Of a stretch of DNA of 28,093 nt, positions 403-28,019 are shown piece after piece (the stretch's first letter is position 1; each line of letters opens with the position of its first letter). Both the position numbers and the translations under genes were made by a program. The DNA comes from a virus. The notes beneath the pieces are model-generated. The model did not search any database and was not told the origin of the DNA. It saw only the letters and a program-made list of their open reading frames with translations. The stretch covers positions 1-28,093 of the IMG/VR virus record IMGVR_UViG_3300025096_000093. One strand, 5' to 3'.

Positions 403-636
403 TCGTAATATTATTACGAGAAACGGGGTTTTATCGTAACAATATTACGATAAACAAGGTTTTATCGTCACAATATTACGATAAACAAGGTTTTATCGTA
501 ACAATATTACGAGAAACGGGGTTTTATCGTCACAATATTACGAGAAACGGGGTTTTATCGTCACAATATTACGAGAAACGGGGTTTTATCGTCACAATAT
601 TACGATAAACAAGGTTTTATCGTAACAATGTTACGA
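403..636. repeat. Eight 17-bp palindromes at exact 31-bp period (iterons)
   Basis: Palindromes start at 403, 434, 465, 496, 527, 558, 589 and 620, each exactly 31 bp after the last. The first (TCGTAATA-T-TATTACGA) and the last (TCGTAACA-A-TGTTACGA) are perfect 8+1+8 palindromes. The middle six have one or two mismatches in the left arm (TCGTAACA or TCGTCACA against TATTACGA). The 14-bp spacers come in two versions, GAAACGGGGTTTTA and TAAACAAGGTTTTA. Thirty-one bases is close to three helical turns, so bound proteins would lie on one face of the DNA. Confidence 0.96.
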
Positions 637-646
637 GAACACTGAG

Positions 647-655
647 TTTTCCACA
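647..655 (+). promoter_or_regulatory. DnaA box 1
   Basis: TTTTCCACA, the cyanobacterial DnaA box consensus, lies in the 42-bp gap between palindromes at 620 and 662 and is followed by G. Confidence 0.75.
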
Positions 656-709
656 GCTTTCTCGTAATATTATTACCATCTATCGTAATATTGTGACGAT
701 AACCACAAG

Positions 710-718
710 TTTTCCACA
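710..718 (+). promoter_or_regulatory. DnaA box 2
   Basis: TTTTCCACA, exactly 63 bp (about six turns) after box 1, in the gap between palindromes at 683 and 725. Confidence 0.75.
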
Positions 719-772
719 GGTTTCTCGTAACATTGTTACCATCTATCGTAATATTGTGACGATAACCACGAG

Positions 773-781
773 TTTTCCACA
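773..781 (+). promoter_or_regulatory. DnaA box 3
   Basis: TTTTCCACA, exactly 63 bp after box 2, in the gap between palindromes at 746 and 788. Confidence 0.75.
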
Positions 782-814
782 GCTTTCTCGTAATATTGTG
801 ACGAGAACTAGGAG

Positions 815-823
815 TTTTCCACA
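815..823 (+). promoter_or_regulatory. DnaA box 4
   Basis: TTTTCCACA, 42 bp after box 3, in the gap between palindromes at 788 and 830. All four boxes point the same way. Confidence 0.75.
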
Positions 824-858
824 GGTTTATCGTAATATTATTACCATCTATCGTAATA

Positions 859-886
859 TTGTGACGAGAACGTTGTATAGTATAAT
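859..886 (+). promoter_or_regulatory. Sigma-70 promoter overlapping the last palindrome
   Basis: A perfect -10 hexamer TATAAT (881-886) lies 16 bp after TTGTGA (859-864), which matches four of six -35 consensus positions. The -35 element is inside the final palindrome (851-867). A protein bound to the palindromes would therefore cover this promoter, giving feedback control of the rightward transcript into the small ORF and the ribbon-helix-helix gene. Confidence 0.5.
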
Positions 887-915: not shown

Positions 916-1022
916 TTATGCACTAAATCCAATTTTTTTGTGCATTAAAACTATGCCATTATGCGAGCGAGCGCAGCGAGCGAAACATGCCAACAGGCCG
1001 CGAAATAATTTGGAGGCGCCTA

Positions 1023-1184
1023 ATGGAAGCGTGCCAGTCCGCTAGAACTGCTGACCTGCAACGCGCTTCAATGTTTCTTGAAAAGGCTGCTGAAGTAAGA
1101 AAAGGAAGCGCCCAACAGCGCCGAGTTTCACGGACCAGGCCTATGAAAGCACAGAAAGAAATAGACAAATCAATCGCGTGGTGA
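1023..1184 (+). CDS. Small basic hypothetical protein (53 aa)
   Basis: I do not recognise this protein. It is short and basic (MEACQSARTADL... to ...IDKSIAW). The ATG at 1023 is preferred over one 36 bases upstream because a GGAGG Shine-Dalgarno sequence (1012-1016) sits six bases before it, while the upstream ATG has none. Its TGA stop (1182-1184) doubles as the TGn of the extended -10 promoter of the next gene, which starts 28 bases later. An ORF also runs on the opposite strand here, but it lacks an equivalent ribosome binding site. It may be a small regulator co-transcribed from the origin promoter, or simply a translated leader. Confidence 0.5.
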   Translation: MEACQSARTADLQRASMFLEKAAEVRKGSAQQRRVSRTRPMKAQKEIDKSIAW

Positions 1185-1212: not shown

Positions 1213-1719
1213 ATGCAGAACCACGGCCAAAAAAAGTATTTACAGATTTTGCTCGATCCAGCCAGAGCCGAACTGCTTCAATCATTGGCTACCGAAAGAG
1301 GAATCAAACCGACAGCTCTCGTTCGTGAGTTGGTTTATCAAGGTTTGGCTAGAAGTGTTCCGACAACAATTTTTAACGAAGCGGCGGCAAAGGATGAAGC
1401 AACTTGGCGTAAGAGTGTACGTTCCCGAGTTGAGGGAAGGCAGGCCCAGCGAGAGCGCAACAAGCAGGGGCAAATCATTCTCACTGAGGAAGAAAAGCAT
1501 TCTCAACAGGAGGCGCTCCAAGCGGTCAAAGCTGCTGCTCAGTCTCATGAGCCTCGTGTGACACAACCTGAGAAACCCTTCGTTGAGACAGACGATACGG
1601 ACCAGTCCAATGAGACGCACCAGACTCATGAGTTGCAGCGCGAGCGAAGCGAACCGATGGTATTGAGTCTCGCGGGACTCACTTTGCAAACGTCCCAGCC
1701 TAAGTCCAATGAGTCCTGA
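1213..1719 (+). CDS. CopG-like ribbon-helix-helix DNA-binding protein
   Basis: A 168-residue protein with an N-terminal ribbon-helix-helix fold at about residues 8-45. KKYLQILLDPARAELL gives the beta-strand and first helix, and ERGIKPTALVRELVYQGL gives the second. This fold binds DNA as a dimer and is common in plasmid partition proteins, copy-number repressors and antitoxins. Residues about 50-100 are charged, and the rest is a polar, low-complexity tail rich in Q, E, T and S that is likely disordered. The start is set by AGAGG five bases upstream. It lies directly after the palindrome region, so it could bind the palindromes, its own promoter, or the GAGAC-rich repeats in its own 3' end. 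It is unusual that the tail coding sequence is also a dense cluster of repeated DNA words. The fold is well supported; the role is inferred. Confidence 0.82.
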   Translation: MQNHGQKKYLQILLDPARAELLQSLATERGIKPTALVRELVYQGLARSVPTTIFNEAAAKDEATWRKSVRSRVEGRQAQRERNKQGQIILTEEEKHSQQEALQAVKAAAQSHEPRVTQPEKPFVETDDTDQSNETHQTHELQRERSEPMVLSLAGLTLQTSQPKSNES

Positions 1720-2436: not shown

Positions 2437-3270
2437 TTACGAGCCAGTCGTAAGATCGGCGAAGTAGCGCTCAACACGCTCGGCAAAGCGCACTTCTGCG
2501 CCGCGTAGCTCCAGCTCTGAGAGATAGCGAACCTGTGGCGCTCCACTGCGACGTGCCACCACAATGCATCCAGCTTTCGCACGTAGCTCGGTGAGATGGT
2601 TGAGCCCGATTGAATACGCCCCAAGCTGGTCGATATATCCACCCAATAACTCTTCGCTACGTTGCCTCTCTGATGTCTTCCAATCCACCACCGTGAGATA
2701 GCTTTTCCCGTCATACGGGCTGATGACATCCAGAAGTCCATCCGCCGTTCCAGCGAAGCCGGTTGGATGGTGGATGCTGAACTCAATTGCGTGCGCTTGC
2801 GTGACATTATCTCCGATCCACCCGGCCAAGCCTCTGGCGTAGCCAGCGGCTGACCATGGAACGGTTGGCGCACCCGCGATCGCTTTGTCATACGCCCAGC
2901 TGAAAATAGATTTTGGTAAACGTTCCAATCCATCAGATCCTGTTTTCCATGAGCCCTTACGGTTTGCTGTTGCTCTGCCAATTTTATTCGTAGTTTTTAA
3001 TAGCAGCTCGGCGTGGTTGTGGGCCAACGTGCCACGAGTAGCGGCTGAATCCCTGAAGGCGGCACTTCCTGGACGTTCCAGCCAGTTAGCCAACCATGCC
3101 TTCTGATGGTCAGGTGCTGTTGCTTGGAGGATTCTTGTTACCGAATGATAGATATTTCCCTTCCTATCTCGGTAGACCCTGCCATTAGGGTCGTGGTCGT
3201 CCAGGCGTTCCAGGGGCCACTTGCGGAGTCCTGCCAAAATGTCGTGGACCCCAACCGTACCAATCGACAT
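2437..3270 (-). CDS. RecB-like PD-(D/E)XK exonuclease
   Basis: A 277-residue protein of the PD-(D/E)XK nuclease superfamily, in the form used by phages for DNA end processing, recombination or host DNA breakdown. The signature is intact: H84 and H86 with E88 in RGTLAHNHAE (family motif GxxH); E163 in HAIEFSIHH; D177 in AGTADGLLDV; D196 and K198 in VVDWKTS; and QLGAY at 215-219. These are the metal-binding and catalytic residues of the RecB/Exo5/Cas4-like group. No iron-sulphur cysteine cluster is seen. It lies downstream of the ssDNA-binding protein on the same strand, but a strong terminator between them means it needs readthrough or its own promoter. The ATG at 3270 has no strong Shine-Dalgarno sequence. 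Its partnership with the SSB in recombination is inferred. Confidence 0.85.
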   Translation of the reverse strand: MSIGTVGVHDILAGLRKWPLERLDDHDPNGRVYRDRKGNIYHSVTRILQATAPDHQKAWLANWLERPGSAAFRDSAATRGTLAHNHAELLLKTTNKIGRATANRKGSWKTGSDGLERLPKSIFSWAYDKAIAGAPTVPWSAAGYARGLAGWIGDNVTQAHAIEFSIHHPTGFAGTADGLLDVISPYDGKSYLTVVDWKTSERQRSEELLGGYIDQLGAYSIGLNHLTELRAKAGCIVVARRSGAPQVRYLSELELRGAEVRFAERVERYFADLTTGS

Positions 3271-3350: not shown

Positions 3351-3935
3351 TTATGCCTCCGCTTTGAAGGGATTTCCACCTCCAAGCAGTCTCGTGATAT
3401 CAAAGCCCTGCGCGGTCGCCTCCTCAAGGGCTGCTGCCACCGTCGCATTATCCTTGGTCCTCTGCGGACAAGGGCGTAAGGAATACTCGGTGGTAAGACC
3501 GGCGCCTTCACGACCCAAGGTGAAATCAGTAGAAAGAATGTTGGTAAAATCCTCCTGTTGTGAGATCTGATCAAGCTCTCTAATCAAGCCCTTTTGGCTG
3601 AGCTGAAGGATTTCGATCTTGGCTGTGTCGTAGTTGTAAACCGGCACGGCAATCGCGAATTTAACTGGCTCCAAGCCTTTGCCGTCCCTGCCAGGTCTGC
3701 GGGTGTAATCACCCAGCTCGATGTCGATTTCTGATGGGCTTGGCTCCTCAGCAAAACGGAAGGGTTTTACACCTCCATTGATCATGTCCTCGCCCCAAAC
3801 CTCGAAAAAGCAAAAGGGTTCTTTCACTAGAAGTCTGAAGCGGACCTGGGAACCGCTCTGAATCTTGCTTGGATTGAGATAACCGCCGCCAGAGGCTTCA
3901 ACGTTGCTCCTGGCGCTTTCGGGTAAAAATCCCAT
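3351..3935 (-). CDS. Predicted phage single-stranded DNA-binding protein
   Basis: The start at 3935 gives 194 residues, MGFLPESARSNV to ...GGGNPFKAEA. The core (about residues 25-150) resembles OB-fold ssDNA-binding proteins of phages in the T4 gp32 style. It has a Gly/Ser-rich start, an aromatic stretch (PFCFFEVWGED), and the pattern VPVYNYDTAKIEILQLSQKG followed by TDFTLGREGAGLTTEYSLRPCP, which those proteins share. In-frame codons run upstream to 4007, but that stretch overlaps a consensus promoter, so translation starts at 3935. It would coat single-stranded DNA during phage replication and recombination alongside the polymerase and primase-helicase. The assignment rests on pattern similarity, not a search. 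Confidence 0.68.
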   Translation of the reverse strand: MGFLPESARSNVEASGGGYLNPSKIQSGSQVRFRLLVKEPFCFFEVWGEDMINGGVKPFRFAEEPSPSEIDIELGDYTRRPGRDGKGLEPVKFAIAVPVYNYDTAKIEILQLSQKGLIRELDQISQQEDFTNILSTDFTLGREGAGLTTEYSLRPCPQRTKDNATVAAALEEATAQGFDITRLLGGGNPFKAEA

Positions 3936-3977
3936 GGTTGTTTGTGTGCTAGTGGGCAAAGTGCCCTGTGCTTTCCT

Positions 3978-4007
3978 AATATAACACGCTTGACGTGAGC
4001 ATGTCAA
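3978..4007 (-). promoter_or_regulatory. Strong sigma-70 promoter of the SSB gene
   Basis: On the minus strand, a perfect TTGACA (4007-4002), an 18-bp spacer and TATATT (3983-3978). The start of transcription would be near 3972, giving a leader of about 37 bases. Confidence 0.8.
3990..4007. promoter_or_regulatory. Operator-like inverted repeat between SSB and primase
   Basis: TTGACGTGAGCATGTCAA matches its own reverse complement at 14 of 18 positions. Each arm is a TTGAC -35 element. The leftward -35 belongs to the strong SSB promoter. The rightward one (TTGACG) is 17 bp from TAGGCT, a weak -10, and could drive the primase-helicase. One repressor bound here would shut both replication transcripts. 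Confidence 0.5.
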
Positions 4008-7516: not shown

Positions 7517-7660
7517 ATGAAAGAGTATTTTTCGCCCCACCTAGGCCTTGTGTGCCTAGGTGTTCTTGTATTCAGCCTCTACGCGCTGGCCCTAACGCAG
7601 CAGCCGCTACCTGAAATCCCTGCTGAAAGCGTGCAGATGGAGGGGAACTATGAATACTAA
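7517..7660 (+). CDS. Small single-pass membrane protein (47 aa)
   Basis: A 47-codon ORF with a good Shine-Dalgarno sequence (AGAGGA, five bases before ATG 7517). It starts MKEYFSPHLG, then one clear hydrophobic helix LVCLGVLVFSLYALAL (about residues 11-26), then a polar Pro/Glu-rich tail ending QMEGNYEY. The end overlaps the DNA polymerase start by 11 bases, so the two are translationally coupled. The length and layout resemble small phage inner-membrane proteins (holin-like or superinfection exclusion proteins), but holins usually sit beside the lysozyme, which is 3 kb away. Function unknown. Short length makes it easy to miss. Confidence 0.66.
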   Translation: MKEYFSPHLGLVCLGVLVFSLYALALTQQPLPEIPAESVQMEGNYEY

Positions 7661-9500
7661 TTACACCCTCTATCAAGGCATTCAATACCTTGAGCATGTA
7701 GCCACAGCTTCGAGCGTCTGCTTTGACGTAGAAACGCTCCAGCTACAGCCAGAACTAGGCAAGCTCCGCTTGCTTCAGCTTGGTTCAAAGGTGCGCAAGT
7801 GTGTGGTCGTTATAGACCTGTTTGATTTAGATGAAGCTGGCTTCAATAAGCTGCGCCTCTTCTTTACCAATGGCGAGCGCTTTTGGTTCGCTCATAACGC
7901 TGTCTTTGACCTGGCTTGGCTCCAGGAATATGACATGCACCCACGAGGGCGCATCGGTGATTCCATGCTGGCTAGCAAGCTGATCAACAATGGAATATCT
8001 TCAACGGTTCGCCACGGCCTACAGCATGTAGTACAAAGGTACTTAAAGGATGATGATGGTCGTCCTGTTGTGCTGCCCAAAGAACAGCAGCTCTCTGACT
8101 GGAGCGCACCGATCCTTAGTGAAGAACAGATTCTCTACGCTGCCAGGGATGTAATAGCGCTGGCCGAGCTTGAGAATCCGCTGCTTGTGCGGATCGCTAC
8201 GAACCGTTTGACTAATGCCTACGCAGTTGAGTGCAATGCTCTGAGGCCGCTCGCTCAAATCTGGCGCTGTGGCTTGCCATGGAATCCAGAAGAGCTGGAG
8301 CAAAGAAAGCAGGACTACAGCCACGACATTGAGCAGCTAGGGAACGAGTTTATTCTGAAGCTCGATGCAAACCTGCCAGCTGAACACCGGCTGCCACGAG
8401 ATGAGGATGGCTCATTAAACCTCAGGCCACGAGCCACGGGTTACGTTCGCGATGGAACCAAGAAACCAGCCGGCTTCAACATCAGCTCCCCGAAGCAGTT
8501 GCTTGAAAAATTAACCGCGTTGCTCGGACACGTTCCAACCGATAGCAATGGCAAGCCGAGCGCTAGCCGTGCTGCCTTGCGTGGTTACGCCGCAGACAGT
8601 GAAATCATCCAGCTCTATTTGACGTGGAAGAAATCTGAAAAACGGAGGCAAATGGTTGTCTCAATTCAAGCAAAGATGGACTCATCCCACGTAACCAAAG
8701 CCAGCTATATGCAATTAGGGGCAGACACGGGACGGATGAGCTGCATCAAACCCAACCTTCAGCAAGTACCTAGAGAACCGGAATTCCGCGCTTGCGTGCA
8801 AACACCCAAAGGCTGGTCCATCGTGGATGCTGATTACTCACAGCTGGAGCTACGTCTAGCAGCAGCCATCGCCAAAGACGAACGCATGATTGCTGCGTAC
8901 CAGGAAGGGGAAGACATCCACCAGATAACAGCTGACATGGTGGGATGCTCGCGCCAGCAGGCCAAGGCCTGTAATTTTGGTTTCTTGTTTGGTGGTGGTG
9001 CAGAAGGTTTACGGAGCTACGCTGGCAGCCAAGGTCTGGTCATCTCGCTAAAAGAAGCTGCTGAATTTAAGAAGAAGTGGCACGCTGCCTACAAAGGAAT
9101 TGCACGTTGGCACAAGCGAGCAGCTGAAGAAGCCACCGCGTCGGAAGGGGATAGATGGGCCGAGGTTCGCATTCCCGGCACCGGATTACGGCGCTACCTG
9201 CCAGGGGATCTCAACAGGCTCACCGTACGTGCGAACACACCGATACAAGGAGCTGGAAGCGCTTGCCTCAAGTTCGCCTTAATAAAACTTTGGCCACTTG
9301 TACACGCTGCTGGAGAGGATGTTGTGAAGATTGCCGCCGTCGTTCATGACGAAATCCTGCTGCTATGTAGAGACGAAGTAGCGTCAACGTGGGCTCCGTT
9401 GCTCAAGGAAAAAATGGAAGAAGCCGGTCAAGTATTTATGGCTGATGTTCCATGCATCGCTGAAGTCCACATCGGTAAGAACTGGGCTCAGGTTCACTGA
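7650..9500 (+). CDS. polA: Family A DNA polymerase with 3'-5' exonuclease
   Basis: 616 residues; the phage replicative polymerase. The proofreading DEDD exonuclease is intact: D26 and E28 (FDVET), D87 (HNAVFD), Y163 and D167 (YAARD). The polymerase palm and fingers show motif A DADYSQLELR (catalytic D395), motif B RQQAKACNFGFLFGG (R435, K439, F443), and motif C VHDE (D567). There is no 5'-3' exonuclease domain, as usual for phage enzymes. By alignment with E. coli Pol I, F443 equals F762 and F447 replaces Y766. The start ATG follows GGAGG and overlaps the 47-aa membrane protein gene. It works with the primase-helicase and SSB. Confidence is high. Confidence 0.97.
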   Translation: MNTNYTLYQGIQYLEHVATASSVCFDVETLQLQPELGKLRLLQLGSKVRKCVVVIDLFDLDEAGFNKLRLFFTNGERFWFAHNAVFDLAWLQEYDMHPRGRIGDSMLASKLINNGISSTVRHGLQHVVQRYLKDDDGRPVVLPKEQQLSDWSAPILSEEQILYAARDVIALAELENPLLVRIATNRLTNAYAVECNALRPLAQIWRCGLPWNPEELEQRKQDYSHDIEQLGNEFILKLDANLPAEHRLPRDEDGSLNLRPRATGYVRDGTKKPAGFNISSPKQLLEKLTALLGHVPTDSNGKPSASRAALRGYAADSEIIQLYLTWKKSEKRRQMVVSIQAKMDSSHVTKASYMQLGADTGRMSCIKPNLQQVPREPEFRACVQTPKGWSIVDADYSQLELRLAAAIAKDERMIAAYQEGEDIHQITADMVGCSRQQAKACNFGFLFGGGAEGLRSYAGSQGLVISLKEAAEFKKKWHAAYKGIARWHKRAAEEATASEGDRWAEVRIPGTGLRRYLPGDLNRLTVRANTPIQGAGSACLKFALIKLWPLVHAAGEDVVKIAAVVHDEILLLCRDEVASTWAPLLKEKMEEAGQVFMADVPCIAEVHIGKNWAQVH

Positions 9501-26284: not shown

Positions 26285-26385
26285 CTTCATAGAGGCATCT
26301 GCTCCTCTGTGTTAAACTGTAGCACATAAGGTTGGCGAAGCGTGAGCGAACACCTTCGCCAGGCCATCACCTCTGCAGGAGAGCA

Positions 26386-26955
26386 ATGACGACACCACAA
26401 TGGCACACAGTAGATAAAAATCTCAATGGAGAGATTTGGAAAAGGGTTGTCGGAAATCCCAATTTTTCTGTAAGTAATAAGGGGCGCGTGCTAAGTCATT
26501 CCAAGGTAAGTAGGCGGAAGTCGCACGGCGGCAAGACTGCTGGGTTTGCCGAAGTCCAGCTGTTGCTAAAGCCAATACCCACATCGCATGGTTACTTGAG
26601 AGTTGCTGTAACTCACTCCAAAAAACGCTTTGTTCACGATCTGGTGACACGCGCTTTTTTGGGACTTAGACCCGAGGGCTACCAAGTGAACCATATAAAT
26701 GGCAAAAAGACAGATAACCGCTTAGAAAATCTTCTTTATATGCAATCCCCTGATTATGTTGCCCCGGAACCTGCAGCGGTTGATAACAAGTATCGCGGCG
26801 GATCAGTCAAGCTCAATGTTCAGGTGGTTAGACAAATAAAAACCCGCCTTGCGGCGGGTCAGTCTGGAGTTTCTCTGGCCCGAGACTTCCACGTCTCTCA
26901 ATCGAACATAAGTGCAATTAAGAGTGGAAAGTCTTGGACCGATGTAACAGTCTAA
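26386..26955 (+). CDS. NUMOD4/HNH homing endonuclease
   Basis: 189 residues. The N-terminus (EIWKRVVGNPNFSVSNKGRVLS) is a NUMOD4 DNA-binding motif. The HNH nuclease follows: HDLVTRAFLGLRPEGYQVNHINGKKTDNRLENL, with the central HIN and the final N of the motif. The C-terminal part (about 145-185: IKTRLAAGQSGVSLARDFHV, then SQSNISAIKSGKSWTDV) looks like a helix-turn-helix repeat. ATG 26386 is chosen because AGGAG lies five bases before it. The gene is on the opposite strand to the structural genes around it, and its stop shares four bases (CTAA) with the capsid stop. Such free-standing endonucleases spread by cutting homologous phages that lack them. Confidence 0.9.
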   Translation: MTTPQWHTVDKNLNGEIWKRVVGNPNFSVSNKGRVLSHSKVSRRKSHGGKTAGFAEVQLLLKPIPTSHGYLRVAVTHSKKRFVHDLVTRAFLGLRPEGYQVNHINGKKTDNRLENLLYMQSPDYVAPEPAAVDNKYRGGSVKLNVQVVRQIKTRLAAGQSGVSLARDFHVSQSNISAIKSGKSWTDVTV

Positions 26956-28019
26956 ACGTTAGTTGCGAACGGAGTGTTCACAATTAAACAAGTTGTATAG
27001 ACCATTTTTGAAGTGGAATAAACCATATCCCAGTTACCTGCTGTTGCTAAGTTAGCATTAGTAGGATTACTAGGACCACTGAAATTAGTACCAAAAACGT
27101 GGAAACCGTAGTGGTAGTCAGTGGAGAGAACATCTTGCTTAGACAAGATGTTACGCTCGGCTTCAATGCGAAGCTCCTGTTGGACACCTTCAGCAATACA
27201 CCCGCTAGATGTTAAATAGACAGGATACTGATCGGATCCACCAACGTTAAGAGTTGGCGCAATTGTGTCATCCACAATTATGCGGAGACCCATAAACCAG
27301 GCAATATCATCAGAGCGAACTCCGATGCCGCCACCACCCCACTCAATGGCCGAGCCGCTAGCGAGACTACTGGAAGAGAAGGTCAACGCACCAATCTGCT
27401 GCAGATATGCATACACGTCGCTGTGCATTGCAATGATCTTTAGCTCGTCTGAGCGTTCGCCTAGCTTGTGCTTAGCACCAACAACAGCAGCAGCTGTTAG
27501 GTAGTTGGCAGCAGTTGCACCGCTAGTACTTTGTGAAACGTCCCAGACGTTATCGGCTAGAGCTGTGTCGAACATGCCCGCAAACATGTCCACCAATGTG
27601 GTGGAACGAAGCACGTTGATGGCACCGGCCAATTGGTTGCGGATTGCAGCCATTGGATCCGAGCCTGTGCCTAGACGGGACAGGTCGTCACATGCATACG
27701 CGAAACCTCTGTGGAGGATCGGCATGATTTGCTCGTCGCCAGTGATGGCTTGAGGTGTCAAATAGCCTGCGCCACTTGTTCCCCAAGTCGCATTTGACTG
27801 GATCCGCTCTTCTGTTGGATTGATTGGGCGGAAGAACGGAACCTGGACAGATACACCGCCGCGCTTAGCGTCGAGTGCATTGTCACGTACCACTGCGCCG
27901 GATTGAACCCATTTGCACTGGTTATAGATTGCTTCTTGGATGTACTGAAGAAATTCAGGACGGGTAACTAAGTCGGTGAGGAATGTTCCTCCCGAATAGT
28001 TGGCCATAGGGGCGGCCAT
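26952..28019 (-). CDS. Major capsid protein
   Basis: 355 residues, an HK97-fold capsid protein. The helix-rich N-terminus (TRPEFLQYIQEAIYNQCKWVQSG) and SVQVPFFRPINPTEERIQS give the arm and extended loop region. The second half (GLRIIVDDTIAPTLNVGGSD and ERNILSKQDVLSTDYHYGFHV) is typical of P22/HK97-like coat proteins of small siphoviruses. No scaffold or protease domain is fused. The ATG follows AGAGGAG, eight bases upstream, among the strongest ribosome binding sites in the window, which fits the most abundant virion protein. The upstream neighbour lies outside the window. Its mRNA passes through the HNH gene in antisense to a strong terminator. Confidence 0.9.
   Translation of the reverse strand: MAAPMANYSGGTFLTDLVTRPEFLQYIQEAIYNQCKWVQSGAVVRDNALDAKRGGVSVQVPFFRPINPTEERIQSNATWGTSGAGYLTPQAITGDEQIMPILHRGFAYACDDLSRLGTGSDPMAAIRNQLAGAINVLRSTTLVDMFAGMFDTALADNVWDVSQSTSGATAANYLTAAAVVGAKHKLGERSDELKIIAMHSDVYAYLQQIGALTFSSSSLASGSAIEWGGGGIGVRSDDIAWFMGLRIIVDDTIAPTLNVGGSDQYPVYLTSSGCIAEGVQQELRIEAERNILSKQDVLSTDYHYGFHVFGTNFSGPSNPTNANLATAGNWDMVYSTSKMVYTTCLIVNTPFATNV

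Follow-up and report, generated by a model that had tools for sequence, protein, structure and literature searches.

How does a phage use a stretch of DNA in which fifteen palindromes in helical phase alternate with four copies of a host-type DnaA box? The first-pass annotation had taken this array for a replication origin that recruits the host initiator, and had read a plasmid-like stage into its layout. Here, that proposal is weighed against the architecture of the array, its gene neighborhood, related phages and known replication, partition and packaging systems. The window analyzed is the entire IMG/VR record, a linear fragment of 28,093 bp.

Gene Content and Host

The left of the window is occupied by replication genes. 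They encode a PD-(D/E)XK exonuclease (2437–3270, minus strand), a probable single-strand DNA-binding protein (SSB; 3351–4007, minus strand, a weak PHROG match), a Prim-Pol/PriCT-2/AAA_25 primase-helicase that is likely the replicative helicase of the phage (4073–6439, plus strand) and a PolA-family DNA polymerase (7650–9500, plus strand). Sigma factor and endolysin genes come after them, and the tail and head genes lie on the minus strand, the last being the major capsid gene at 28,019. A free-standing HNH/NUMOD4 homing-type endonuclease is encoded on the plus strand (26332–26955) amid these minus-strand head genes. Portal and terminase genes are absent from the 28,093-bp window. Cyanophage S-2L and marine virus AG-345-A17 have major capsid proteins that share 43% and 50% identity, respectively, with that of the window; the sigma factor resembles that of Synechococcus phage S-CBS3 (38% identity), and PolA reaches 50–59% identity in a group of contigs from uncultured viruses. 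These similarities place the virus among the cyano-siphoviruses, in an uncultured clade, and the matches of capsid (S-2L) and sigma factor (S-CBS3) bear out the cyanophage assignment made at first pass. Since no DnaA box lies near dnaA in Prochlorococcus (PMC4674748), a Synechococcus-like host is more likely.

Architecture of the Palindrome Array

The 465 bp from 403 to 867 hold fifteen (pseudo-)palindromes of 17 bp, all members of one family. Eight of them start at 403, 434, 465, 496, 527, 558, 589 and 620 (left sub-array) and seven at 662, 683, 725, 746, 788, 830 and 851 (right sub-array), so that the successive spacings are seven times 31 bp and then 42, 21, 42, 21, 42, 42 and 21 bp. At 10.5 bp per turn, distances of 31, 42 and 21 bp correspond to 2.95, 4.0 and 2.0 helical turns. 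At up to three mismatches, the window yields 22 palindrome matches on both strands, versus 0.03 in 100 dinucleotide shuffles. Only the copies at 403 and 620 are perfect (8/8); the others pair at six or seven of the eight arm positions. The left sub-array (403–636) repeats the palindrome TCGTMACAATRTTACGA (first copy TCGTAATATTATTACGA) with a 31-bp period and the spacer [GT]AAAC[GA][GA]GGTTTTA, while the right sub-array (662–867) is made of TCGTAAYATTRTKACSA at distances of 21 or 42 bp and has the inverted sense. The asymmetric arm (GTCAC/GTGAC) faces leftward in the left sub-array and rightward in the right one, and the two halves are therefore inverted relative to each other; when single-stranded, they could fold into a long snap-back structure (z −20). 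The 42-bp unit exceeds the 31-bp unit by 11 bp, i.e., one helical turn, and the DnaA box sits where the two differ. All fifteen palindromes that had been noted from the sequence, at 31 and then 42/21 bp, were thus located, and the differences between the sub-arrays in spacer, arm and period are present as well. The left end of the contig, including the array, derives from one assembly. A CRISPR was ruled out, given the near-identical spacers, and Rfam gave no match.

DnaA Boxes within the Array and in Other Cyanophages

Four exact copies of TTTTCCACA, the published cyanobacterial DnaA box (PMC4674748, PMC6323995), lie in the array on the plus strand, in accordance with the identity and the spacing first proposed for them. 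Boxes 1 (647–655) and 3 (773–781) have the extended form AGTTTTCCACAGCTTT, and boxes 2 (710–718) and 4 (815–823) the form AGTTTTCCACAGGTTT. Their spacings of 63, 63 and 42 bp amount to 6, 6 and 4 helical turns, and the offset from box start to the next palindrome start is exactly 15 bp in each case. These are the only exact copies in 28 kb, where composition predicts 0.26. In the four box-bearing right-hand copies the 12-mer AGTTTTCCACAG is unchanged, whereas 7 of the 13 other spacer columns vary; the chance that the nine box columns alone stay invariant is 0.024 if the columns are assumed to be independent. The number of boxes partly reflects the duplication of one unit.

Among 423 boxes from other viral contigs, several of which belong to T4-like cyanophages, AG-TTTTCCACA-GGTTT is the majority context, and the boxes of the window fit it. 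Two copies of TTTTCCACA at 30–60 bp from each other were matched at least 120 times in viral contigs, and among the matches listed more than 60 contigs have three to eight boxes inside 400 bp. Intergenic clusters of three to eight boxes were observed in T4-like cyanophage contigs (L154, L155, L185, L190, L204, L241, L310 and others). Box clusters often precede a conserved glycosyltransferase-like gene by some hundred bases; in several of these contigs, this gene is 80–85% identical to that of Kyanoviridae isolates (e.g., S-SCSM2R, S-SSM7). One of the five isolate stretches checked, that of DSL-LC02, has a compact box pair (L296:508-550) together with two near-boxes. By this comparison, DnaA-box clusters are not peculiar to the phage of the window; the palindrome array and the register are. 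Since the clusters recur in T4-like cyanophage contigs, the recruitment or titration of host DnaA may be common in cyanophages, and the question seems wider than one phage.

AT-Rich Flanks and Neighboring Elements

A near-identical AT-rich direct repeat of 42 bp (86%) brackets the array at 338–379 and 878–919. Ranked by nearest-neighbor energy, the 50-bp stretches of lowest stability in the contig are 1873–1922, 336–385, 1820–1869 and 876–925, i.e., the DNA directly on either side of the array and that just past the gene for a ribbon-helix-helix (RHH) protein. Both the left flank (336–385, rank 2), which contains TGTAATACACTGTAATACTTTACA, and its near-copy on the right (876–925, rank 4) are candidate unwinding elements. 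The most AT-rich and least stable region (1820–1938, ranks 1 and 3) carries 8-bp TATAGTAT repeats and contains CTGTAATACT, copies of which lie at 350, 890 and 1839, one for each AT-rich region. The extremely AT-rich stretch past the RHH gene (1805–1930) could be either the true opening site or a terminator/promoter region.

The best promoter-like match, TTGTGA-16-TATAAT (859–886, plus strand), agrees with the consensus and would drive orf987 and the RHH gene; its −35 element overlaps the last palindrome. Further elements were noted close by. The palindrome itself is not an NtcA site, as it reads GTA-N7-TAC rather than GTA-N8-TAC; one true NtcA-type GTA-N8-TAC (GTATAGTATAATAC, 875–888) overlaps the putative promoter. 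An RpaB HLR1-like match with one mismatch is found at 359, in the left flank region. The left AT-rich flank is abutted by a GC-rich 8-bp repeat (CGCGCCTA/CGCGCCTG, 24.5 copies, 112–307) in which only A/G varies.

Candidate Binding Proteins

The RHH gene lies 350 bp from the array. Its product, RHH1213 (1213–1719, plus strand), combines a clade-conserved N-terminal RHH domain with a C-terminal extension of about 80 amino acids that is seen in the window only and not in relatives. Pfam gave no confident match. The alignment-based model predicts a strand-helix-helix order, and all best fold matches are RHH proteins (PutA, CopG, Arc, NikR and ParG), with SegB also among the matches; the probabilities reach 0.99, and the E-values are weak because the domain is short. 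These matches uphold the presence of an RHH gene near the array. Marine viral contigs often encode this family (211 candidate IMG/VR loci with the alignment as query, 80 of which were kept). RHH1213 as a single-sequence query retrieved nothing in IMG/VR, and GTDB genomes gave no match. In RHH proteins, alternate residues of the strand contact the DNA. The strand residues K7, Y9, Q11 and L13 are invariant in 11 aligned members, and with the predicted contacts (K-Y-Q) conserved, DNA specificity should be common to the family. Yet, the palindrome array was not found in any RHH-bearing relative examined, which speaks against RHH1213 as the palindrome binder, the role suggested for it at first pass, though its C-terminal extension has no counterpart in the relatives. 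Next to the RHH gene, orf987 (987–1184, plus strand) encodes a small helical protein that is conserved in the clade at this position. No homologue of a Rep-, O- or RepA-type initiator was found among the genes of the window, which is an incomplete contig; RHH1213, the orf987 product and the primase-helicase are candidate initiators.

The Presumed Homologous Locus in Related Phages

In relatives, the gene order is exonuclease, SSB, primase-helicase, PolA, orf987 and RHH. In the window, the block orf987-RHH-orf2051 (987–2365) precedes the exonuclease and directly follows the array; the order within the block matches that in L022, L024 and L025. Judging from gene order, the block has moved from behind polA to the side of the array. 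Neither the array nor a DnaA-box cluster occurs in 12 related contigs (19–42 kb), about 110 further partial loci and five cyano-siphovirus isolates. The 12 contigs hold two scattered single copies of TTTTCCACA in all, and the isolate genomes of S-2L, KBS-S-2A, S-CBS3, S-LBS1 and P-HS2 hold none. In relative L028, the noncoding DNA beside terL has TGTAATACAGTGTAATA, a 17-bp element of the array flanks of the window; this is the only exact match in 1.9 Mb, and matches with up to three mismatches are no commoner than in shuffles. At the apparently homologous locus upstream of terL, L034 carries 8.6 copies of a different 17-bp semi-palindromic repeat (TAGTACATTTGTATTCT, 2240–2386), which is largely missing from L060, even though the terL genes of both are 99% identical. 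Given the L028 element beside terL and the repeat difference between L034 and L060, the array probably sits in noncoding DNA that changes quickly and lies close to the terminase genes. A long, coding-looking tandem repeat of 51 bp (45–56 copies) was noted in the contig of a relative (L081:7980-10297, L287:7980-10862).

The search for the palindrome in other genomes, which had been suggested at first pass, gave no IMG/VR match for the exact 17-bp sequence. Pairs of half-sites gave eight IMG/VR matches, none of them of the palindrome family of the window; the one inspected in detail, L140, is the operator of a high-GC prophage. A DnaA box adjoining a half-site was matched 21 times, never with a palindrome array. 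Phage and plasmid collections returned nothing relevant to the array. Within the viral contigs and the phage and plasmid collections searched, the palindrome array is unique.

A Putative Iteron-Type Origin and Its Alternatives

In lambda, dimers bind iterons that are inverted repeats; in plasmids, the iterons are phased and the origin is inactivated when this phasing is disturbed, DnaA assists and an AT-rich region opens (PMC5043065). The locus repeats one replicon-specific site fifteen times in phase with the helix and has adjacent AT-rich DNA that should open easily (flanks of rank 2 and 4 in 28 kb) and host DnaA boxes within the array, a trait that is common but not universal among iteron origins. 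The array adjoins the RHH gene, and the exonuclease, SSB and primase-helicase genes follow within 2–6 kb. Taking together the sites and their register, the sequence of the boxes, the low stability of the flanks and the replication genes, we infer that positions 336–925 are, on balance, probably an iteron-type replication origin, with a phage protein on the palindromes, host DnaA on the boxes and flanks that open. A dimeric phage-encoded protein would fill all fifteen palindromes and, since nearly all sites face one side of the helix, could wrap the DNA into a single nucleoprotein structure. Host DnaA would be recruited to the four boxes that keep this register within the right half, and both proteins would jointly put strain on the AT-rich flanks and open them for loading of the phage Prim-Pol/AAA helicase or the host helicase. 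Against such an origin, sister phages with the same replication genes carry neither array nor box cluster and must thus start replication in some other way; moreover, arrays that come and go at this locus, as in L034 and L060, are unlike an essential origin. The origin proposed in the first-pass annotation hence retains the iteron and DnaA-box architecture and the unstable flanks; RHH1213 as binder and the plasmid-like stage are not supported. For the latter, neither integrase (PF00589) nor ParA (PF13614) was detected in any of 13 contigs (the window and 12 relatives, several of which, the window included, are incomplete).

A regulatory or decoy array is a rather unlikely alternative, in which the palindromes would be stoperator-like operators through which a phage repressor controls early genes and the orf987-RHH operon, and the boxes would titrate DnaA and thereby halt host replication. 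The overlap of the last palindrome with the −35 element fits an operator, as do the fast turnover at the locus and the pairing of similar half-sites (TCGTAAC/GTTACGA) in front of the gene for an HTH regulator in a prophage of high GC content. Nonetheless, with fifteen phased sites in 465 bp and boxes held in register, the array goes beyond what is usual for an operator, and the region has no more promoter-like matches than its shuffles do. Titration by a datA-like cluster, with the four exact boxes as candidate sites, would account for the intergenic clusters in many T4-like cyanophages, which have no obvious need for DnaA, but it requires neither register nor palindromes. Terminase recognition typically uses iterated sites, and a cos/pac site had been named in the first-pass annotation as a finding that would count against an origin. 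The homologous locus in relatives is indeed noncoding DNA beside terL, where L028 has TGTAATACAGTGTAATA and L034 another tandem array, and the window stops short of the terminase. Even so, a pac/cosB-like region at the genome end, bound by the terminase small subunit, appears unlikely: the array is absent from relatives with terminases of the same terL family, no small-subunit gene was detected between 1 and 3300 (the terminase being outside the contig), and DnaA boxes are not known to play a role in packaging.

RHH centromere arrays are phased repeats, and with an RHH protein encoded so near and ParG and SegB among its fold matches, RHH1213 might bind the palindromes in a ParG/omega/ParR-like manner as a partition centromere of an extrachromosomal prophage. 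We regard this as very unlikely, since neither a ParA-type ATPase (PF13614) nor an integrase was detected in the window or 12 relatives and since the RHH family keeps its predicted contacts in phages without the palindrome. An assembly artefact or chimera is the least credible explanation and highly improbable. The array does lie at a contig end beside a 196-bp repeat of 8-bp period, is covered by no second contig and neighbors a block that is placed differently from relatives. However, the gene order inside that block is shared with three of them, the substitutions that set the array copies apart are many and follow a structured pattern, and the independent contig L009 matches the right part exactly.

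Returning to the iteron-type origin, one more specific version of it is possible, albeit doubtful: a composite initiator with phage dimers on the fifteen palindromes and host DnaA on boxes at whole-turn distances in the same array. The box module would be an 11-bp (one-turn) extension of the 31-bp repeat of the phage itself, and the whole would be a recently acquired DnaA-dependent start that is absent from sister phages sharing the primase-helicase and polymerase. No paper joining cyanophage, DnaA box and replication origin was found in open-access full texts, and those that mention cyanophage, DnaA and a replication origin seem, judging by title, to deal with other matters. As a compact candidate that names a host factor, the locus makes the dependence of a cyanophage on host DnaA directly testable.

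Comparison with Known Systems

The origin of lambda resembles the locus in its use of several palindromic sites of about 17–19 bp beside an AT-rich stretch, and its site symmetry predicts dimer binding in the array of the window too (PMC5043065). The four lambda sites, which O dimers bind, lie within the O gene and are not interspersed with DnaA boxes, whereas the window has fifteen intergenic sites with two periods, two inverted halves and boxes in register, and no O-like gene was found. Phased initiator sites, DnaA boxes and an AT-rich region are also combined in P1 oriR, F oriS, RK2 oriV, pSC101 and V. cholerae oriII, and the function of plasmid origins requires helical phasing (PMC5043065). 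In these systems, most iterons are direct repeats to which monomers bind, and the boxes are placed at one end; the sites of the window are palindromes with boxes between them, and neither a Rep homologue nor plasmid functions were detected. RHH centromeres (ParG/parH, omega/parS of pSM19035, ParR/parC) likewise have phased repeats adjoining an RHH gene, but the window lacks a ParA-type partner, and its RHH family is kept in relatives without the repeat. Cyanobacterial oriC uses the same species-specific box TTTTCCACA (PMC4674748), yet it has no phage palindromes, and the window has no neighboring dnaN or dnaA. Finally, while the clusters of T4-like cyanophages lack a palindrome array and have irregularly spaced boxes that point in either direction, they share with the window the extended box AGTTTTCCACAGGTTT, the intergenic position and cyanobacterial hosts.
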